In this document: piece after piece, positions 11,441 through 18,883 of the stretch
How positions within the stretch are numbered: position 1 is the first letter of the stretch
How the letters are laid out: every line of letters begins with the position of its first letter
Source of the DNA: a virus
Direction: 5' to 3' (one strand)
IMG/VR virus record: IMGVR_UViG_3300005827_000069
Span: 1-32,913 of that record
DNA: 32,913 nucleotides
Notes under the pieces: model-generated
What the model saw: the letters and a program-made list of their open reading frames with translations, nothing else
Told to the model about the DNA's origin: nothing
The model's database searches: none
Translations under genes and position numbers: made by a program

Positions 11441-12577
11441 TTAGTCCTCGGTTCGATCTTTTTGCTCAGCCTTGTGACTGAGGTCTTCGGTCTGGTAGTC
11501 GCGCTTGAGCAACCACTCGATGTCAGAGTCCGTAACCTCAGCCTTGCACAGCTCTCGGTAGTCGCAGCTGTTGCACTGGAAGCCGATGTTCTGATCCTTC
11601 TTCTTGCCGAAGTTATCCTGGATCTCTTTCGCGGTGTCTACGAAGTCATTCCAGATGCTGTCCACAATTCGAGGCTTGATCGGGCTGTATAGGCGGACGA
11701 AGCGATTGCGGCGGTTTGCTTTCGCATCCTCCAGCATCTTCTTGAACTCCTTCCGCTTGTGACCCTCCTCCTCGATCCAGGCCTCGACGCGGCTCGGCAG
11801 TGTGTCGATTGCTCGCTGACTGATCCGCCCTGTGGGAGTGAGTTCGCCGGGGACGTTGCACGGCTTGCTGCTGATGTAGTCCCACAGGACGCCGTCCAGG
11901 GAAGGGAACCCCATTTCCTCAGCAGCGCGGAAGTAGGCCGCTGCCTGAACGGACCTCCAGCGATCACCCTCGCTCGGCATTCTACTGAATGACTTGTGCT
12001 CGACCAGCCACTTCATGCCCTTCGACTTGGCGATAGTATCGATCTTGCCGGTAAACCATAGACCTTCGTCCATCTCGATACGAAACTCAAACTCCGAGTA
12101 CCGGCCGTCATGCTTGATGGGCTTCAGTGTTCCTTCCCAGTGCTCGAAGTAGTCCTCCATGATGTAGCCGATGTCCACGAGAATGTTGCCATACATTTCT
12201 CGCTCCTTGCGGAACATCGGGCCGAGGTTCTTCTCGTAACGACGAAGGACCTTGCGCCACTTCTGTCCCTCGAGCTGGGCCTCAATAATCTCATGGACGA
12301 TGCTGCCAAACATCAGCGGACGGCTCTTCTTCTTTTTCTGGATACCAAGCACGAACTTGTTATGGAATGCTCGGCGGCAGTTACGCCAGGTCTTCACCTT
12401 CGATTGACTGACGTTGATCTGACCGTCCTTCGTCATCACCGTGCTGTGGTCATGCTCCGGTGCTTCGGGTGGACGATTATGACCTAGGCCGACTCGAGCT
12501 GCCGCTTCTTCCGTCGGGCTTCTTTTGAGCTTTGCTTGGCGGTCTGCTCTGCGATCAGCAATTGTTCGTCTAGCCAT
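11441..12577 (-). CDS. RecB/Cas4-like PD-(D/E)XK nuclease with a 4Fe-4S cysteine set
   Basis: 378 residues. RecB-family motifs in order: His95 (GSIVHEI), Asp180 (FTGKID), Glu193-His-Lys195 (LVEHKSF) and Gln211/Tyr215 (SVQAAAYF). Four cysteines, C67 (TWRNCRRA) then C335, C338, C344 (FQCNSCDYRELC), are spaced as in AddB/Cas4 iron-sulfur nucleases. Likely an exonuclease for DNA-end processing during recombination or replication. The N-terminal 45 residues carry GLGHNRPPEAP, a motif common in alphaproteobacterial and phage proteins, which supports the start at 12577 despite a 94-base overlap with the polymerase gene. AAAGGA lies about 9 bases before that ATG. Confidence 0.8.
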   Translation of the reverse strand: MARRTIADRRADRQAKLKRSPTEEAAARVGLGHNRPPEAPEHDHSTVMTKDGQINVSQSKVKTWRNCRRAFHNKFVLGIQKKKKSRPLMFGSIVHEIIEAQLEGQKWRKVLRRYEKNLGPMFRKEREMYGNILVDIGYIMEDYFEHWEGTLKPIKHDGRYSEFEFRIEMDEGLWFTGKIDTIAKSKGMKWLVEHKSFSRMPSEGDRWRSVQAAAYFRAAEEMGFPSLDGVLWDYISSKPCNVPGELTPTGRISQRAIDTLPSRVEAWIEEEGHKRKEFKKMLEDAKANRRNRFVRLYSPIKPRIVDSIWNDFVDTAKEIQDNFGKKKDQNIGFQCNSCDYRELCKAEVTDSDIEWLLKRDYQTEDLSHKAEQKDRTED

Positions 12578-15075
12578 TTCTTCAATCCTTTACCTTGACT
12601 CCATGCACCGATCTTCGCTTCCGCTTCGATAGGAACACCCAATTCAACCTCAAAGTCCTCGAGCAGCTCGGGCTGCGACATTATCTCAAGGCCTCGCTTG
12701 TAAACGTGTTCCACCTTGTCGTTACGAACCTCTAAGAGCACGGCGTCGTGAACAGTTCCCACAAGGCGGAACCAGCCTTTCTTAAACTCCTTACGCATTT
12801 GGATAGCAGCCATGAGGTTAAGCTCATTAGCGAAACTCTGAACAGGTGAATTGATTGCCTGCCGCTGAGCTTCTCGACGCTCGGGAGAATCTCTACCTCC
12901 CATCGCTGCCGGCAACCTACGCTTTCGGCCAGATAGAGACCGGACGTATCCGTTGATCTGAGCAAAACGACGCTGCTTATCGTGCCATTTTGGAAAACCA
13001 GGATTGAGTTCGAAGAAGGCTTCTCGGCTTGCCTGTGCTTCCTCGTCCGTGACCGTGACACCATAGTTGTCCCTCGCGTAGATCTTGAACTTCTTCCACC
13101 ACATACCATAGAGGTAGCCGAAGTTGATTGCCTTTGCTTTCTTTCTCGTTTCCTTCCAGTCGATGAAGGCTTCTTCCATAGCCTTCGTCTCTTTCCATTC
13201 CTCGACAACGCGGACAGCTTCATCGCCACCGATGCCCAGGACGTATTCGACAGCATCACTATAAGACAATTTCTTGCCGCCGTGCAACTTCGCGGTCTTG
13301 ATTATTTCCTTGCGGTATCCTCCGCCACGTTCTATCTCGCGAATTGCAGTTTGCCAGTGAGGGTCACCGCCTTCGTTGAACACTCGCAGGAGGTTATGCT
13401 CATCTGCAAGCTCGGCGGCAATGCGGAGTTCAATCTGGCTGAGATCCATCTCAATAAGCGACCATCCCTCAGGAGCTGTAATGAGACTTCTGATCCGAGG
13501 ATCTCGAGGGACTTGCTGGAGATTGGGATGCTCGCAAGAGAGGCGGCCGGTAACAGTACCATGCAATTTGAATACCGGATGAAGCCTGCCAGTGGTGTCA
13601 ATGTAAGGACGCCATCCTTCAATGAAACTGCTGAGTTGCTTCTGTGCAGCTCTAACCCGGAGTAGGTCGCCGACCATTGGATGGTCGATACGGAGGAGGA
13701 CGCTTTCTGAAACACTGTTTTTCCCCGTCTTGGTTTGCTCGATGGGTTTGATCTTCAGGACGTTGAACAGCAGGTCTCCCAGCTGATCGGCGCTGCCCCA
13801 ATTGATCTTGCCCTTGTTCTTTCCCTTGGTGTCAACCTTCTGAGCCTTCTTACCCCACTTCTCGAGTTTGCCAAGGGCGTCCTCGAGTTCTTCACGGAGG
13901 TAGGCTTCGGCATCATCCATCTTGTCCATGTTGATGAACACGCCGCGGTGCTCAGCTTCAATGAACAATTGGATGCAAGGCACCATGATAAGATCATAGA
14001 CACGCTTTACGTCATGGTCCTCATTGAGCTGAGCCTTGAGGAACTTACGAAGGAGCCTTGTGTAGTAGACGTCATGGGCTGCATACTTCGCATTCTTCGG
14101 TGACCAGCTCGTCTTCTCCTTACCGTCAATGTCCCAGTCAGGAGCACCGAGATATTTCTGTGCGAGATACTTCAGGCTGTGCCGGTCATTCTCATCGATC
14201 AGGTAGTGAGCCAGCATGGTGTCAAAGTCGACACGCCACTTGACGCCGAAGCGAACCAGCATCCACAGGGCATCGAACTTGCCGTTATGGAATACCGTCT
14301 TGCACTCATTGAATTTGCGGGTCGCCAGCTTGACGATCTTCTTCAGTTCGTCGGGAGTCCAGATGCCCGCTGTTTCCATGGGCACGATCCACTGCCGCTT
14401 GCGACAGCCGAACTGCATAGCCACGACACGAGGAAGATTGTTTGAGCCGTGAGTGCCTTTGTGCTGGGCTAGGAGTTCTTTCGATGCACGACCAGCCTCG
14501 ATCAATTCATCTTGCATCGTGGTAAAGGGATATAGCCGGGACGTTTCAAGGTCGCAGGACACAACTCCCTTGATGTCTCGGAGCATCGCTTTCACCTTAT
14601 CCCAGGTGTCTACGATGTGATAGTCGAGCGCCTTCTCCTCGGGAATACCTCCGAAGGCTACACACTCCTTGAGTCGTTGAAGGTCGGACTCGATGATGCT
14701 CACCCACTTCTCATCATGGAGAGCCTGGTTCGGGTGAAGCAATGGTAGAACGATCTTGCCTTGATGCTGAATGGGTTTACCCCTCAGCTTCGTGATACCC
14801 GCTTTGTCCATGAATGCTTGGCAAGCAGTATTGCCGAGAAGCACAACGTACTTCGGATCTCGTTTTTCCATCTTGCCGAGGAAACGCTCCTTGGCATTCT
14901 TTATCATGGTCTTGGTGATGTTCTTGCCCTGTGGAGGGGCTTCCTTCAGTACGTTCAACCAACGAAAGTCTGACTGCTCAAAACCCGCGGACAGCATCGC
15001 ATCCATGAAGATGGACTTTGCCCGCGGGTTGATCTGGGAATGCTCTCCGACAACTACAATCTCTTTACGCTTCAC
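12484..15075 (-). CDS. Family A DNA polymerase with UDG-like N-terminal domain
   Basis: 863 residues. Residues 1-140 resemble the uracil-DNA glycosylase superfamily (VVVGEH, LNVLKEAPPQGKN, VVLLGNTACQAF, GITKLRGKPI, PLLHPNQALH). Residues about 150-350 are a 3'-5' exonuclease with Asp175/Glu177 (CDLETS), HNGKFD (263-268) and Tyr331/Asp335. The polymerase domain has motif A DLSQIELR (544-551), motif B RKKAKAINFGYLYG (644-657) and motif C HDAVLLE (776-782). An extra segment of about 60 residues lies between A and B. Phe652 at the E. coli Phe762 position predicts discrimination against dideoxynucleotides. All catalytic exo and pol residues are present. The replicative polymerase of this phage. Confidence 0.93.
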   Translation of the reverse strand: MKRKEIVVVGEHSQINPRAKSIFMDAMLSAGFEQSDFRWLNVLKEAPPQGKNITKTMIKNAKERFLGKMEKRDPKYVVLLGNTACQAFMDKAGITKLRGKPIQHQGKIVLPLLHPNQALHDEKWVSIIESDLQRLKECVAFGGIPEEKALDYHIVDTWDKVKAMLRDIKGVVSCDLETSRLYPFTTMQDELIEAGRASKELLAQHKGTHGSNNLPRVVAMQFGCRKRQWIVPMETAGIWTPDELKKIVKLATRKFNECKTVFHNGKFDALWMLVRFGVKWRVDFDTMLAHYLIDENDRHSLKYLAQKYLGAPDWDIDGKEKTSWSPKNAKYAAHDVYYTRLLRKFLKAQLNEDHDVKRVYDLIMVPCIQLFIEAEHRGVFINMDKMDDAEAYLREELEDALGKLEKWGKKAQKVDTKGKNKGKINWGSADQLGDLLFNVLKIKPIEQTKTGKNSVSESVLLRIDHPMVGDLLRVRAAQKQLSSFIEGWRPYIDTTGRLHPVFKLHGTVTGRLSCEHPNLQQVPRDPRIRSLITAPEGWSLIEMDLSQIELRIAAELADEHNLLRVFNEGGDPHWQTAIREIERGGGYRKEIIKTAKLHGGKKLSYSDAVEYVLGIGGDEAVRVVEEWKETKAMEEAFIDWKETRKKAKAINFGYLYGMWWKKFKIYARDNYGVTVTDEEAQASREAFFELNPGFPKWHDKQRRFAQINGYVRSLSGRKRRLPAAMGGRDSPERREAQRQAINSPVQSFANELNLMAAIQMRKEFKKGWFRLVGTVHDAVLLEVRNDKVEHVYKRGLEIMSQPELLEDFEVELGVPIEAEAKIGAWSQGKGLKKWLDEQLLIAEQTAKQSSKEARRKKRQLESA

Positions 15076-15566
15076 GGGAGCTCCACCACTTTTCGAGAGA
15101 AGTGATCGACAATATAACCTGCGGGCGTGACCAAGTAAACTTCCGTTATCCCATGAAATTGCCCCAGGTGACTGACATCGCGGTACGGCGTCTCATAGAA
15201 TATCCGGCCCACCCGGATCCCCGCATCCTCCAGGATGAACTTGGTGCAGAAGGAGCATGGGCTGTCAGTGCAATACAGATCGACCGGTGCTACCATGTGT
15301 GCGGGATACTCGGCTAGCAAGACCTTCGCCGCCTTGGTCAATGCGTTGACTTCAGCATGGAGAGTCCCACAGTTGCCGGGCACGATGCCGGGACACTCAT
15401 TGCCGCGACAGTGAGGAGCACCCGGCTCCTGACCGTTCCAGCCGACTGCGATGGGATTGTTCTCCTGGGTGACTATCGCACCGACGTTCAATCGGTGACA
15501 GGTTGACCTCAGCGAGGCCACCCTTGCCATCTGCATGAACATCTGGGCTCTGCTTATGCGCCCCAT
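15072..15566 (-). CDS. dCMP deaminase
   Basis: 164 residues of the zinc-dependent deoxycytidylate deaminase family. The zinc/catalytic motif is H70-A-E72 with P-C104-x2-C107 (DSPCSFCTKF). Further Cys residues (HCRGNECPGIVPGNC) suggest the second zinc site known from T4-type dCMP deaminase. It converts dCMP to dUMP, feeding dTMP synthesis. ATG 15566 is chosen because GGAGG lies 8 bases upstream; an in-frame start at 15593 lacks this. It overlaps the polymerase start by four bases (ATGA) and lies beside two TS-fold genes, so nucleotide supply and replication are co-expressed. Confidence 0.9.
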   Translation of the reverse strand: MGRISRAQMFMQMARVASLRSTCHRLNVGAIVTQENNPIAVGWNGQEPGAPHCRGNECPGIVPGNCGTLHAEVNALTKAAKVLLAEYPAHMVAPVDLYCTDSPCSFCTKFILEDAGIRVGRIFYETPYRDVSHLGQFHGITEVYLVTPAGYIVDHFSRKVVELP

Positions 15567-15748
15567 TTGTTTAACCTCCACTCTTCTACCCAAGGCGAAT
15601 TACTTGACCCGCAGTGGATATAGCTTACTTCATAGGTGACGTTGAGACCCGTGCCTCGGTGACACACCGCGGTGACCACTCCGATAAGACTCTCGTCCCG
15701 GTCGATGGTCACCCGGTCACCGATGTCATAGGTGGTAACCAGTTGCAT
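15554..15748 (-). CDS. Small SH3/KOW-like protein
   Basis: 64 residues: MQLVTTYDIGDRVTIDRDESLIG...VTAVCHRG...YEVSYIHCG...WVEEWRLNKWGA. This matches a common small phage/prophage family of the form 'GDRVTID...VTA...YEVSW...WxEEWRL', likely a single SH3-like beta barrel. Function unknown. The ATG at 15748 overlaps the stop of the TS-fold gene (TGATG) and GGGAG lies upstream. The 3' end overlaps the deaminase start, so it is embedded in the nucleotide operon. Confidence 0.7.
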   Translation of the reverse strand: MQLVTTYDIGDRVTIDRDESLIGVVTAVCHRGTGLNVTYEVSYIHCGSSNSPWVEEWRLNKWGA

Positions 15749-16590
15749 CAGATCAACTCCCAGTCGGGCTTGAAGGAATGAAGCGAACCGATCTGCATAA
15801 TGAAATCGCCGACCCGAACTCCCTTCCACCGAGCGTCACGAGACTGGAGCTCACGAAGCATCCAGACGACAAGCCGCGCAGTCAAGTACAGATCATTGCG
15901 GAAATGCTTGACGAAGTCGCAGCTGCGGATATGGTAGTTGACGCTGAGACGATCCTGCCGCATCATAAAGTGATAGCCGATGGTACAGGGTGCTCGCTTG
16001 TCGCCTCCTCCCGTGTCTTCGGGGAACCAGACCGGCAGGTAAGCCTGTCGCGTCAGGGGATCATCGATCATCAGAGCCACAACGTCCTTGAGGTCGCCAT
16101 ACTCATACATGATGCCGGCCATGGTCGTTGACTTGCCCATCTGGAAGTAGTCCCGATACCTCGAACGGAACTCGGCGCTGTCCTTTGTGGGTTCCTTGAC
16201 CACGTGAGCGAGCTTCGGCCAGTACCGTTCCATGTAGTTGTGATTGAACTTGCCTCGACGATCAAGGAAGGACTCCGCTCCTCGCCCGGCGTTCCACGGC
16301 CAGTTCTTGAACTCAGTGCCGGGGTTGATCGGGAAACCGCAGACACGTTCCTCGAAGTGAGCATCCGCCCAGGGAAGATCGGGTTCGATGTCCTTGGCGT
16401 ATGCCTCGAGGTCCGTTTCATACCCATCCATGGGAATTTGCAGGTGGAGGTGGGTAAGCTCGAGACAGGCCATGTTGGGATTGTTAGCAATCTCCACACC
16501 CTGCCACCGACGACTGTGAACCAGCTCACCTTCATCCTTGAGCTCACATCGGATATTCTTGATGGCCTGGCCGAAACTGTCGTAGATCAT
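15748..16590 (-). CDS. Thymidylate synthase-superfamily enzyme, candidate dCMP hydroxymethylase/methylase
   Basis: 280 residues. TS-family landmarks: DDPLTRQAYLPVW (phosphate-binding Arg181), PC202 (catalytic Cys), IRSCD (Arg222-Asp225) and IGSLHSF (His271). The spacing from Cys202 to the RSCD motif equals that of E. coli ThyA. Counting eight residues past Asp225, the position of ThyA Asn177 is Asp233. In T4 dCMP hydroxymethylase and engineered TS, Asp here switches specificity from dUMP to dCMP. An Asn (232) sits next to it, so a one-residue shift is the main caveat. Predicted product: 5-hydroxymethyl- or 5-methyl-dCMP; ordinary TS remains possible. ATGA overlap with the second TS-like gene; SD GGAGAAG. 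Confidence 0.75.
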   Translation of the reverse strand: MIYDSFGQAIKNIRCELKDEGELVHSRRWQGVEIANNPNMACLELTHLHLQIPMDGYETDLEAYAKDIEPDLPWADAHFEERVCGFPINPGTEFKNWPWNAGRGAESFLDRRGKFNHNYMERYWPKLAHVVKEPTKDSAEFRSRYRDYFQMGKSTTMAGIMYEYGDLKDVVALMIDDPLTRQAYLPVWFPEDTGGGDKRAPCTIGYHFMMRQDRLSVNYHIRSCDFVKHFRNDLYLTARLVVWMLRELQSRDARWKGVRVGDFIMQIGSLHSFKPDWELI

Positions 16591-17423
16591 TCGTCTTCTC
16601 CTTCTTCGGTCTCATCGTAGTCATTGCGATGTCCCGGATGATTGTCTCGCAGGTATTGAGTAAGTTCCCTGCGCCGTTTGCCCTTGATGCGCTTATCCGC
16701 ATCCATCTTCACCCTCAGCGCCTGTGCGAACTTGGCAATGCCCCGGTAATGCTCCTCGCACAGGTAACGAGCAGTCCATTTGATAATCCAGTCGTAGAAA
16801 TACCGATCCTTCTTCTTGATCTTCTCCAGCTCCGCGATGGGATCCTCCAGGTGGGGGATCGCCGTCACGAAGTACTGCGGGTGGACTGTAATGTTTGCGA
16901 AGTGACAGGTCAACCCTAGAAACTCCATGCCCGAGAAATCGAAATCCTTGAGCAGGACGTCTCGAATGAAGACCAGATCGGCCGGGAACTTCTTGAGCAG
17001 CTCGGTCGTTCGGTAGAAGACATCGATGAAGTACTGAGCGTTCTTGCCGCCCTTCACTTGGGTGATGACAACGGACTGAAGGCAGGGCCCCATGACCGAT
17101 GCTCGCTTGGACTTCTTCACCGCGTCATTCTTGAGGAAGTGGTTGTAGCAGGTGAAGCCCACAGAGCCATAGGACGGCTTCGACCTGCGAAGCTTCCATA
17201 GCATCAGTGCTGCCTCAATGCTTTCTTCGTGAACGTAGAGACGCTTCAAATGCGACATCTTCGCAGACGTATAACCAGCATCCTCGAGGATGAGTGGATC
17301 CTTGTGATCCCATAGGTCGTCGAACCTGATAGACCTCCCCCTGATAATCTTGCGACAACCTGAATAGAAGTCAGCCTCGCGGCGTGACAGCTTCAGGACC
17401 TCATTGATCCACTCACTCTTCAT
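16587..17423 (-). CDS. Second thymidylate-synthase-fold protein (divergent)
   Basis: 278 residues. A diverged TS pattern is visible: GPC114 (Cys), a beta-strand segment of about 23 residues, YRTTE (Arg138, Glu141), FPADLVFIRDVLL and NITVHPQY (His181). Eight residues past Glu141 is Asp149, again Asp where TS has Asn. The N-terminal 90 residues are helical and not typical of TS, and the C-terminus is basic then acidic. It is directly upstream of, and overlaps, the other TS-like gene, so the two may form a heteromer or catalyse successive steps. The assignment rests on motif spacing and is less certain than for the neighbour. Confidence 0.55.
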   Translation of the reverse strand: MKSEWINEVLKLSRREADFYSGCRKIIRGRSIRFDDLWDHKDPLILEDAGYTSAKMSHLKRLYVHEESIEAALMLWKLRRSKPSYGSVGFTCYNHFLKNDAVKKSKRASVMGPCLQSVVITQVKGGKNAQYFIDVFYRTTELLKKFPADLVFIRDVLLKDFDFSGMEFLGLTCHFANITVHPQYFVTAIPHLEDPIAELEKIKKKDRYFYDWIIKWTARYLCEEHYRGIAKFAQALRVKMDADKRIKGKRRRELTQYLRDNHPGHRNDYDETEEGEDE

Positions 17424-17426
17424 GAC

Positions 17427-18371
17427 TCAGATTGCCCTTGTGTCGGAGTATCGGTCGGCGTCTTGGTTGAAGCCCTGGAACTCGGGCTCGTCTTGAGGAA
17501 CCCCGAACAGTTCATCAAAGATGGCGTTGTCTTCGATCAGATCGCGGTGATCGGGTGGCAGCCAGCCGGCAGGTTTCCGGACATCATACTTGACCTCACG
17601 GCCGCTGTCCTCGGCACCTGGATCATCGGTCGCCAAGACCTTGGCCATGTTGGCCTTGACAACGCGGCGCCATGCTTCCATGAAAGCCTTCCGACCGAAC
17701 TGAACGTCGGCAGTTCCCAGGACAACCCACACTGCGTCAACGAGGGAGTCCAGCTGCTTCTCCAGGGCAGTGATGATGTCCCGGCGATCCCGTCGCTCGA
17801 TTGCGTCGATCAGCTTGGGATACTCGTCTTCATATTCGCCGGTCTCCTCCTGATGGAACTTCGTTCTGAAGTCATGGAGGTCGGCCGGCAGGAGACGGGG
17901 CTTGCCGAGGTATTCCTGACCGAACTTGGCATGGAACGCATTGACATCGCCCATCAGGTCAGGGAAGTCGTGCTCTCGAAGATGAAGCTTCTCGGCGATC
18001 ATTTCTGCCTGTGCGTCCAGGACACGCCTCATCCAGTCAACGAACTCGCGGCCCATTCGATGATTGTTCTGCGGGGCCGCGCGGGTAATCATATGGTAGA
18101 CGTCGGTCACCTCGTGCAGTTCGATGCGGAACGCAGCCGCGCTCTGGTTCTCATCGTCCCAGATCATAACGTCACGGGATGCAACGGCCTCGAGTTCGGT
18201 GAAGCGATGAGCCCACCTGTCATCGTTGGTCCAGAACATCATGCCTTCCTCATTGCGGTAGGCTACGCCATCTACCCAGACGTATTCCCAGTCATTCGAC
18301 TTGCCCTTCTGTGGTCCCATGAACTGATATAGGCCGCCCTCTGCATGGCGGTGTGTTGGTACGAACTTCAT
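17427..18371 (-). CDS. MazG-like all-alpha NTP pyrophosphohydrolase with N-terminal extension
   Basis: 314 residues. Residues about 140-250 carry the MazG/dCTPase-type helical motif: DVNAFHAKFG, E175-E-T-G-E179 (QEETGEYEDE), D208-x3-D212 (LDSLVDAVWVVLGT) and K239-x-N241-x2-K244. These residues bind magnesium and the triphosphate. Residues 1-110 form a separate unidentified domain (WEYVWVDGVAYRN, MFWTNDDRWAHRF). The enzyme should hydrolyse a nucleoside triphosphate to the monophosphate and PPi; T4 uses an all-alpha enzyme of this kind (gp56) to remove dCTP. GAGGAG precedes the ATG. It ends three bases before the second TS-like gene. Confidence 0.75.
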   Translation of the reverse strand: MKFVPTHRHAEGGLYQFMGPQKGKSNDWEYVWVDGVAYRNEEGMMFWTNDDRWAHRFTELEAVASRDVMIWDDENQSAAAFRIELHEVTDVYHMITRAAPQNNHRMGREFVDWMRRVLDAQAEMIAEKLHLREHDFPDLMGDVNAFHAKFGQEYLGKPRLLPADLHDFRTKFHQEETGEYEDEYPKLIDAIERRDRRDIITALEKQLDSLVDAVWVVLGTADVQFGRKAFMEAWRRVVKANMAKVLATDDPGAEDSGREVKYDVRKPAGWLPPDHRDLIEDNAIFDELFGVPQDEPEFQGFNQDADRYSDTRAI

Positions 18372-18382
18372 TGGATAGCTCC

Positions 18383-18883
18383 TCAGTTGGAGTTGGCTTG
18401 GGTGTACTCATAGTGGAAATAGACCGTAGCGATCAGCTGGTCCATGTCATCGCCGATGCGATAGATGAAGTGAGCATGACGAGCAGCCCACAGACGATAC
18501 TCCTTGAGGAGCTCTTCCTGCTTGGTAGCGAGAAGCTTTTGATGGACCTCGGTATCGTGGTCCTTGAGAACGTGACCCTCGAAGCCTCGATCACCGGCAT
18601 CGCAGTAGATCAAGGTGGGCTTCGACTCATAGAACAGCATTGCTCTGCCCGGCGTGATAGGATCACCTTCGGGACGGAACTTGCCGTAAATGGAATTGGA
18701 GATCACGGGATGACGGACGAATAACGTCTGCGTTAAGGTGGCATAGCCATCAACGCGAGCATTTATCTCGTCATCCGACTTTGGCGGCCCTTCACTTTCT
18801 TGGATATTCAGGCCTATATAATCAGCGAGCGCCTGCGCCAGGGTGCTCTTCCCTGAATTGTCCATTCCTTCAATAACGATCAT
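18383..18883 (-). CDS. P-loop deoxynucleoside monophosphate kinase-like protein
   Basis: 166 residues. Starts MIVIEGMDNSGKSTLA with Walker A GMDNSGKST (6-14), and has RHPVISNSIYGKF and LIYCDAGDRGF, the arrangement of thymidylate kinase-like enzymes. It probably phosphorylates a dNMP, perhaps the product of the adjacent TS-like enzymes. The phage HMdU-DNA kinases belong to the same P-loop class, so a DNA substrate cannot be excluded. First gene of the leftward nucleotide/replication operon, about 40 bases from its promoter. Confidence 0.7.
   Translation of the reverse strand: MIVIEGMDNSGKSTLAQALADYIGLNIQESEGPPKSDDEINARVDGYATLTQTLFVRHPVISNSIYGKFRPEGDPITPGRAMLFYESKPTLIYCDAGDRGFEGHVLKDHDTEVHQKLLATKQEELLKEYRLWAARHAHFIYRIGDDMDQLIATVYFHYEYTQANSN

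Follow-up and report, generated by a model that had tools for sequence, protein, structure and literature searches.

A conserved phage gene cassette that links two unusual thymidylate synthase-fold proteins and probably serves cytosine modification

Altering their bases allows phages to evade host defences, and enzymes with the thymidylate synthase (TS) fold are the usual entry point to such alterations. Here we analysed a viral record of 32,913 bases, probably a fragment (IMG/VR record IMGVR_UViG_3300005827_000069, hereafter the window), in which a cassette of minus-strand genes runs in the order P-loop deoxynucleoside monophosphate (dNMP) kinase, MazG-like pyrophosphohydrolase, P, TS1, deoxycytidine monophosphate (dCMP) deaminase and DNA polymerase I (PolA). 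We consider it probable that, ahead of replication, the products of this operon form a modified deoxycytidine triphosphate, which lets the phage polymerase place modified cytosine in the DNA. Base modification at the nucleotide level is a known strategy; what is new here is the linked pair of unusual TS-fold proteins, which are encoded as follows:

15748..16590, minus strand: TS1, TS-superfamily enzyme with residues of dCMP-type specificity (phrog_160 E 3.6e-28; AlphaFold2 model; residue comparison)
16587..17423, minus strand: P, divergent TS-fold protein of a family without a Pfam entry (AlphaFold2 model and fold search; invariant residues)

A six-frame search of the whole window record with PF00303 gave no match, and a scan of the single TS1 protein gave an E value of 3e-5, just under Pfam's cut-off, so that the domain is sub-threshold and not absent. 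The AlphaFold2 model of TS1 (predicted local distance difference test, pLDDT, 91.9) matches TS, MilA, AfhB and T4 dCMP hydroxymethylase, with VIA-align Z scores of ~19.5 to the first three and root-mean-square deviations (rmsd) of 2.1-2.8 to TS and MilA, and supports a TS fold for this protein. The catalytic residues of TS are kept in all or nearly all aligned TS1 sequences, namely Tyr119 (Tyr94 in TS), Cys202 (Cys146), Arg222 (Arg166) and His271 (His207), and Asp169 is kept as Asp225. Of the residues that differ, Asn177 has become Asp (Asp233; 94/95 and 82/82 aligned sequences) and His147 has become Thr or Ser (Thr203 in the window), and both positions were tied to cytosine modification in a metagenome association study (MetaGPA, PMC8670742). 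Asp177 and Thr147 thus look like marks of a dCMP enzyme, and the modified thymine that the preliminary description of this sequence had left open as an alternative is disfavoured by Asp177. Further changes are Arg127 to Gln (Gln182), Gly173 to His (His229) and Tyr209 to Phe, of which Gln182 and His229 are conserved in TS1. In TS1 of the window, 7 residues follow the Tyr209 equivalent, against 55 in ThyA, and the long C-terminal tail that closes over folate is absent. Among the folate-site residues of the T4 enzyme (Glu60, Trp82 and Asp171), Trp97 and Asp225 of TS1 match the last two, while the conserved Glu81 is probably the equivalent of Glu60 by its spacing to the Tyr, in a part where the alignment is unsure.

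The dCMP hydroxymethylase signature derived from a structural study of the T4 enzyme consists of an acidic residue (Asp or Glu) at the third position ahead of the catalytic Cys (Cys-3) and a Ser at the second position ahead of the Tyr (Tyr-2), and the T4 D145N mutant does not form 5-hydroxymethyl-dCMP (PMC6400193). TS1 departs from this signature at both positions, with Arg at Cys-3 (Arg199; 176/177 rows) and His at Tyr-2 (His117; 170/177 rows), and 5-hydroxymethylcytosine made as in T4 is therefore not the safest reading. In a phylogenetic tree, the TS1 sequences group in a clade separate from both T4-type gp42 and ThyA, with members from loci without P nested inside it, while AfhB lies on a long branch whose placement is unsure. 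The grouping with ordinary ThyA that had been named as evidence against a modification pathway was thus not seen for TS1. Judged by these residues, TS1 looks like a new TS subfamily, tuned to dCMP yet off the known hydroxymethylase signature.

The second protein, P, has no Pfam match, its sole PHROG match is a family of unknown function, and neither phmmer nor profile searches against PDB sequences returned anything. A profile search of both TS-fold reading frames, as the preliminary description had proposed, was informative for TS1, whose best PDB profile matches are to AfhB, and empty for P. The alignment behind the AlphaFold2 model of P comprised 61 sequences that came exclusively from the window or IMG/VR. 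The model has a mean pLDDT of 92, and with Foldseek and VIA-align its top matches are essentially only TS-family structures. The best is the AfhB dCMP hydroxylase (9iqu; Z 13.3, 177 residues aligned, rmsd 3.5), followed by MilA (Z 12.6) and thymidylate synthases (Z ~11). The model strongly suggests that P has a TS fold, with its C-terminal third predicted to form extra helices. The earlier proposal of two TS-fold proteins is thus upheld, for TS1 by profile and model, and for P, which is not visible to ordinary sequence search, by AlphaFold2 and fold search.

Although P families average only ~27% identity, four residues, and only these, are invariant (80/80 and 84/84 sequences, and likewise in the 61-sequence set), and they map to functional positions of TS: Tyr63 to Tyr94, Cys114 to Cys146, Arg138 to Arg166 and Asp149 to position 177. 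The spacing of 11 residues from the Arg to position 177 is the same in P, ThyA and TS1. In a direct profile comparison of P with TS1 (hhalign), the Cys, Arg and Asp residues of the two families were aligned with each other (E 1.4e-4, probability 53%, up from 2% in a first, shallow comparison with fewer sequences); the match of the Tyr is our reading of the alignment. By alignment, P has neither His207 nor the paired Arg126/127. Two database records independently name P a 'pyrimidine hmase synthase'. It should be noted that an iterated P profile can drift: the enlarged profile pulled in a further family of ~180 residues (P2), which was excluded from the structure alignment. The identity of P in relatives is independently supported by its position adjoining TS1. 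P2, with the motifs FCL, YRSLELxGGF.YD and ALKGNSNEKL, has the Cys and the Asp 11 residues after the Arg as in P, and lies downstream of TS1 (L032:4834-5382, L033:4944-5510 and L063:6768-7316, and also in loci L057, L065, L066, L069, L077, L083, L098 and L104). In Knuthellervirus and its relatives, P2 may represent a third protein of TS fold, encoded between TS1 and the deaminase.

The two proteins are closely linked across phages. By protein search, 239 phage records contain a match to TS1, with a query coverage of 80% or more in 56 records, and 18 phage records contain a close match to P. Gene maps show the order kinase, MazG-like protein, hypothetical protein, thymidylate synthase, in some cases deaminase, and PolA in phages of many hosts (Brevundimonas, Yersinia, Gordonia, Serratia, Streptomyces, Microbacterium, Desulfofustis, Mycobacterium, including phage Muddy, Curtobacterium and Pseudomonas), and by profile iteration the hypothetical protein upstream of TS1 is P in all mapped phages. 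P is also present in 99/113 loci that contain TS1 or a distant match to TS. Where a locus retains four or more of the six cassette genes, the canonical order on a single strand is found in 94/97, and in 76/79 once identical TS1 sequences are removed, which excludes a chance arrangement. In a search anchored on an actinophage P, TS1 lies downstream on the same strand in 78/79 loci, and the remaining locus is cut off by the contig end. Thus P is hardly ever seen without TS1, whereas TS1 can occur without P.

Several variants of the locus were seen. Two P genes occur in a single locus in two cases (L089, 4903-5730 and 7077-7877; L110, 5108-5938 and 7742-8485), and in a third locus P is separated from an intact TS1 by a degenerate TS1 copy (L095:5310-6008) with Cys changed to Thr, Tyr94 to Leu and Asn at position 177. 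Where TS1 occurs without P (L075, L081, L086, L094 and L100), it often follows genes that, as read from their sequences, resemble DNA C5-cytosine methyltransferases, hinting at another route that may combine TS1 with methylation. Six TS1-bearing contigs (L121-L126), five of which also hold P, were binned in metagenome-assembled genomes of Phenylobacterium, Gammaproteobacteria, Lokiarchaeota, Spirochaetaceae, Pacearchaeota and Proteobacteria; these are probably phage contigs. An idea taken from the Serbin paper, that the cassette stands in for the 7-deazaguanine gene cluster that phage 9g carries, was dropped, as the 9g map has no matching slot.

In the window, all five reading frames named in the preliminary description are present on the minus strand, and beyond TS1 and P the cassette comprises:

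18383..18883, minus strand: P-loop (d)NMP kinase, thymidylate-kinase-like (phrog_761, thymidylate kinase, E 1.8e-9; PF02223 E 0.007; same position in relatives)
17427..18371, minus strand: MazG-like all-alpha nucleoside triphosphate pyrophosphohydrolase (phrog_671 E 6.9e-16; EExxE-type motif)
15072..15593, minus strand: dCMP deaminase with the zinc motif HAE ... PCxxC (PF00383 E 5.9e-16; phrog_174 E 6.9e-32)
12484..15075, minus strand: DNA polymerase I, the replication gene downstream of the cassette (PF00476 E 1.5e-70)

The coordinates bear out the close packing ahead of the polymerase that had been described from the sequence, an order that is also the conserved one in the relatives. The kinase and the MazG-like gene are 11 nt apart, the MazG-like gene and P 3 nt, and overlaps of 4 nt join P to TS1 and the deaminase to PolA; the spacing of 154 nt from TS1 to the deaminase is looser. 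The likeness to T4 that had been pointed out also stands at the level of enzyme classes: a protein of the MazG-like or dCTPase class, a TS-fold enzyme, a kinase and a deaminase adjoin the polymerase, and by profile match the dCTP/dUTP pyrophosphatase and dNMP kinase classes of a T4-like pathway lie next to the TS-fold enzyme, with predicted substrate specificities. The MazG-like protein has an N-terminal extension of ~150 residues, and its relatives are annotated as dUTPase, MazG or dCTP pyrophosphatase; it likely hydrolyses dCTP or dUTP to the monophosphate. The deaminase likely supplies deoxyuridine monophosphate (dUMP) for thymidine triphosphate (dTTP) and trims the dCMP pool, and the kinase would phosphorylate the modified nucleotide. 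The polymerase, of family A, carries an N-terminally fused uracil-DNA-glycosylase-like domain (residues 23-121; PF03167 E 6.9e-9).

Synthesis of thymidine monophosphate (dTMP) is provided for separately in relatives. In Microbacterium phage Triscuit, TS1 (gp66) adjoins a textbook ThyA (gp67), and ThyX was found above the cut-off in 16/45 TS1-bearing records and also in two named TS1-bearing phages. As these relatives encode their own ThyA or ThyX, TS1 is unlikely to be the phage dTMP synthase. Four close relatives of the window (L130, L131, L132 and L134, from records G013, G012, G011 and G020) encode a divergent ThyX-like protein with the motifs RNARSSRAVP and HKQ.ANRPLEW, which scores low against PF02511 and was not found in the window fragment.

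Based on these findings, we suggest the following course of events, the chemistry of which draws on knowledge of the enzyme families. The MazG-like enzyme would cut dCTP to dCMP, Cys202 of TS1 would attack C6 of dCMP, and a group would be installed on C5. P, with its own Tyr, Cys, Arg and Asp active-site set, would work with TS1, either on the product of TS1 or in a TS1-P complex. The kinase would start the re-phosphorylation of the modified nucleotide, the deaminase would supply dUMP, and the polymerase would incorporate the modified cytosine into DNA. That P acts together with TS1, on dCMP or on its product, appears most likely because P keeps the full Tyr/Cys/Arg/Asp set yet is almost never found without TS1. 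His117 and Arg199 of TS1 sit where the T4 enzyme positions its water, and since these near-invariant residues replace the water-activating pair of T4, a simple addition of water of the T4 type is probably not used; TS1 may plausibly rely on another nucleophile or on a changed geometry of its cofactor. More tentatively, and with less than even confidence, we propose that TS1 and P are an undescribed two-component TS-fold system whose product would be a form of cytosine so far not known from DNA. In this system, P may add another group, through its own Cys, to an activated C5-methylene or hydroxymethyl product of TS1, or may form a mixed active site with TS1. Dozens of phages already in culture, the therapeutic phage Muddy among them, would then carry the system without its having been recognised.

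A number of observations weigh against the main reading, in which the operon makes modified cytosine through TS1 and P. TS1 is present without P in some viral records (P was not found in the TS1-only records examined, by a search that lacked a positive control), and P is therefore not essential to TS1. In a mirror-tree comparison, the correlation of pairwise distances between P and TS1 (r 0.66) does not exceed that between TS1 and PolA (0.66) and falls short of that between P and PolA (0.90); given no special co-evolution signal between P and TS1, we do not claim a tight obligate heterodimer. The annotations of phages Muddy and PMBT14 list neither a glycosyltransferase nor any other enzyme for later modification, and we found no measured nucleosides in the literature for any phage of the cassette group. 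Among the main reading frames scanned in the window, itself a fragment, there is likewise no DNA glucosyltransferase or other later modifying enzyme; P itself may be that enzyme. Finally, the isolate set that includes Strzyga was fingerprinted with EcoRI (PMC10070969), which suggests that Strzyga DNA may be cut by this enzyme and speaks mildly against a bulky, cut-blocking base.

The best surviving of the other explanations is a plain T4-like pathway, in which TS1 would be a methylenetetrahydrofolate-dependent dCMP hydroxymethylase, the DNA would contain 5-hydroxymethylcytosine, and P would be an accessory protein or a second hydroxymethylase. TS1 and T4 gp42 share the TS fold, the catalytic Cys, Asp at position 177 (Asp179 in gp42), Thr after the Cys, the equivalents of Trp80 and Asp169, and the lack of a long C-terminal tail, the fold of TS1 scores Z ~19 against MilA, and in T4 too pyrophosphatase, kinase and deaminase functions accompany the polymerase. 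However, Asp145 and Ser94 of gp42, which make up the hydroxymethylase signature, are replaced in TS1 by Arg and His, Gly173 by His, and Tyr209 (Tyr218 in gp42) by Phe; TS1 belongs to a separate clade, and the cassette differs from T4 in having no glucosyltransferase seen and in having P. We regard this pathway as rather unlikely. MilA, a cytidine monophosphate (CMP) 5-hydroxymethylase, resembles the cassette proteins in its TS fold and cytosine substrate class, and differs from TS1 in acting on CMP and in having Asp at Cys-3, as in T4. Of the pathway first suggested, then, a dCMP-directed cassette is supported, given Asp177, Thr/Ser147 and the separate ThyA or ThyX, and 5-hydroxymethylation specifically is not, given the Arg and His that replace the signature; nor does the analogy with T4 account for the strangest feature, the presence of P as a further, divergent protein of TS fold that is tied to TS1. 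5-Hydroxymethylcytosine formed as in T4 is the less likely outcome, and more probable is nucleotide-level cytosine modification by a new TS subfamily together with the second TS-fold protein linked to it.

P could also be a catalytically idle partner, a structural or regulatory heterodimer subunit that completes or tunes the TS1 active site. The absence from P, by alignment, of the paired-Arg motif (R126/R127) that TS dimers donate across their interface, the retention of R181 in TS1, the fact that in most loci the two genes overlap or lie a short distance apart, and the rarity of P without TS1 would all fit such a role. An idle subunit, however, would not need the nucleophilic Cys and the specificity Asp that remain invariant in so divergent a family, and the distances of P and TS1 show no excess co-variation; a purely supporting role for P appears unlikely to us.

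By analogy with AfhB of phage HY126, TS1 or P might instead carry out a flavin-dependent 5-hydroxylation that yields 5-hydroxy-dCMP. The PDB titles of the AfhB structures (9iqu and 9iqc) name a dCMP hydroxylase and a riboflavin-dependent monooxygenase, these structures are the best fold matches of P as well as the best profile matches of TS1, and Asp177, Phe209 and Asp212 are common to TS1 and AfhB. However, AfhB has Asn169, Glu at Cys-3 and no Trp80, where TS1 has Asp169, Arg and Trp80 (judged from a single AfhB sequence, Asn169 and Glu at Cys-3 may be markers of the class), the AfhB fold scores for TS1 are tied with those of other TS enzymes, and identity to the window proteins is only 15-21% over the aligned fold. 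The HY126 genes neighbouring AfhB are annotated as hypothetical. We consider this chemistry distinctly improbable for TS1 or P. That TS1 is a diverged thymidylate synthase of ordinary nucleotide supply, turning dUMP from the deaminase into dTMP, is hardly credible: most records annotate it as thymidylate synthase, and the deaminase and kinase would fit dTTP supply, but Asp177 and Thr147 in place of Asn and His, the rebuilt cofactor pocket, the missing ThyA tail and the separate ThyA or ThyX of relatives speak against an ordinary enzyme of this kind.

Contigs with modified cytosine in the MetaGPA study carry TS, PRA-PH, dCMP deaminase and carbamoyltransferase (PMC8670742). They resemble the cassette in combining an Asp177-type TS with a pyrophosphohydrolase and a dCMP deaminase, and differ in the carbamoyltransferase, none of which was seen in the window; that study took Pfam domains as its units, and no Pfam model exists for P.

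The cultured phages that carry the cassette infect Gordonia, Mycobacterium, Serratia, Pseudomonas, Yersinia, Streptomyces, Microbacterium and Brevundimonas, and in Muddy, a phage in therapeutic use, its TS-fold pair is annotated merely as a thymidylate synthase and a hypothetical protein. If the modified base that we propose is real, it would be relevant both to how these phages evade restriction and to enzyme tools for work on modified DNA.

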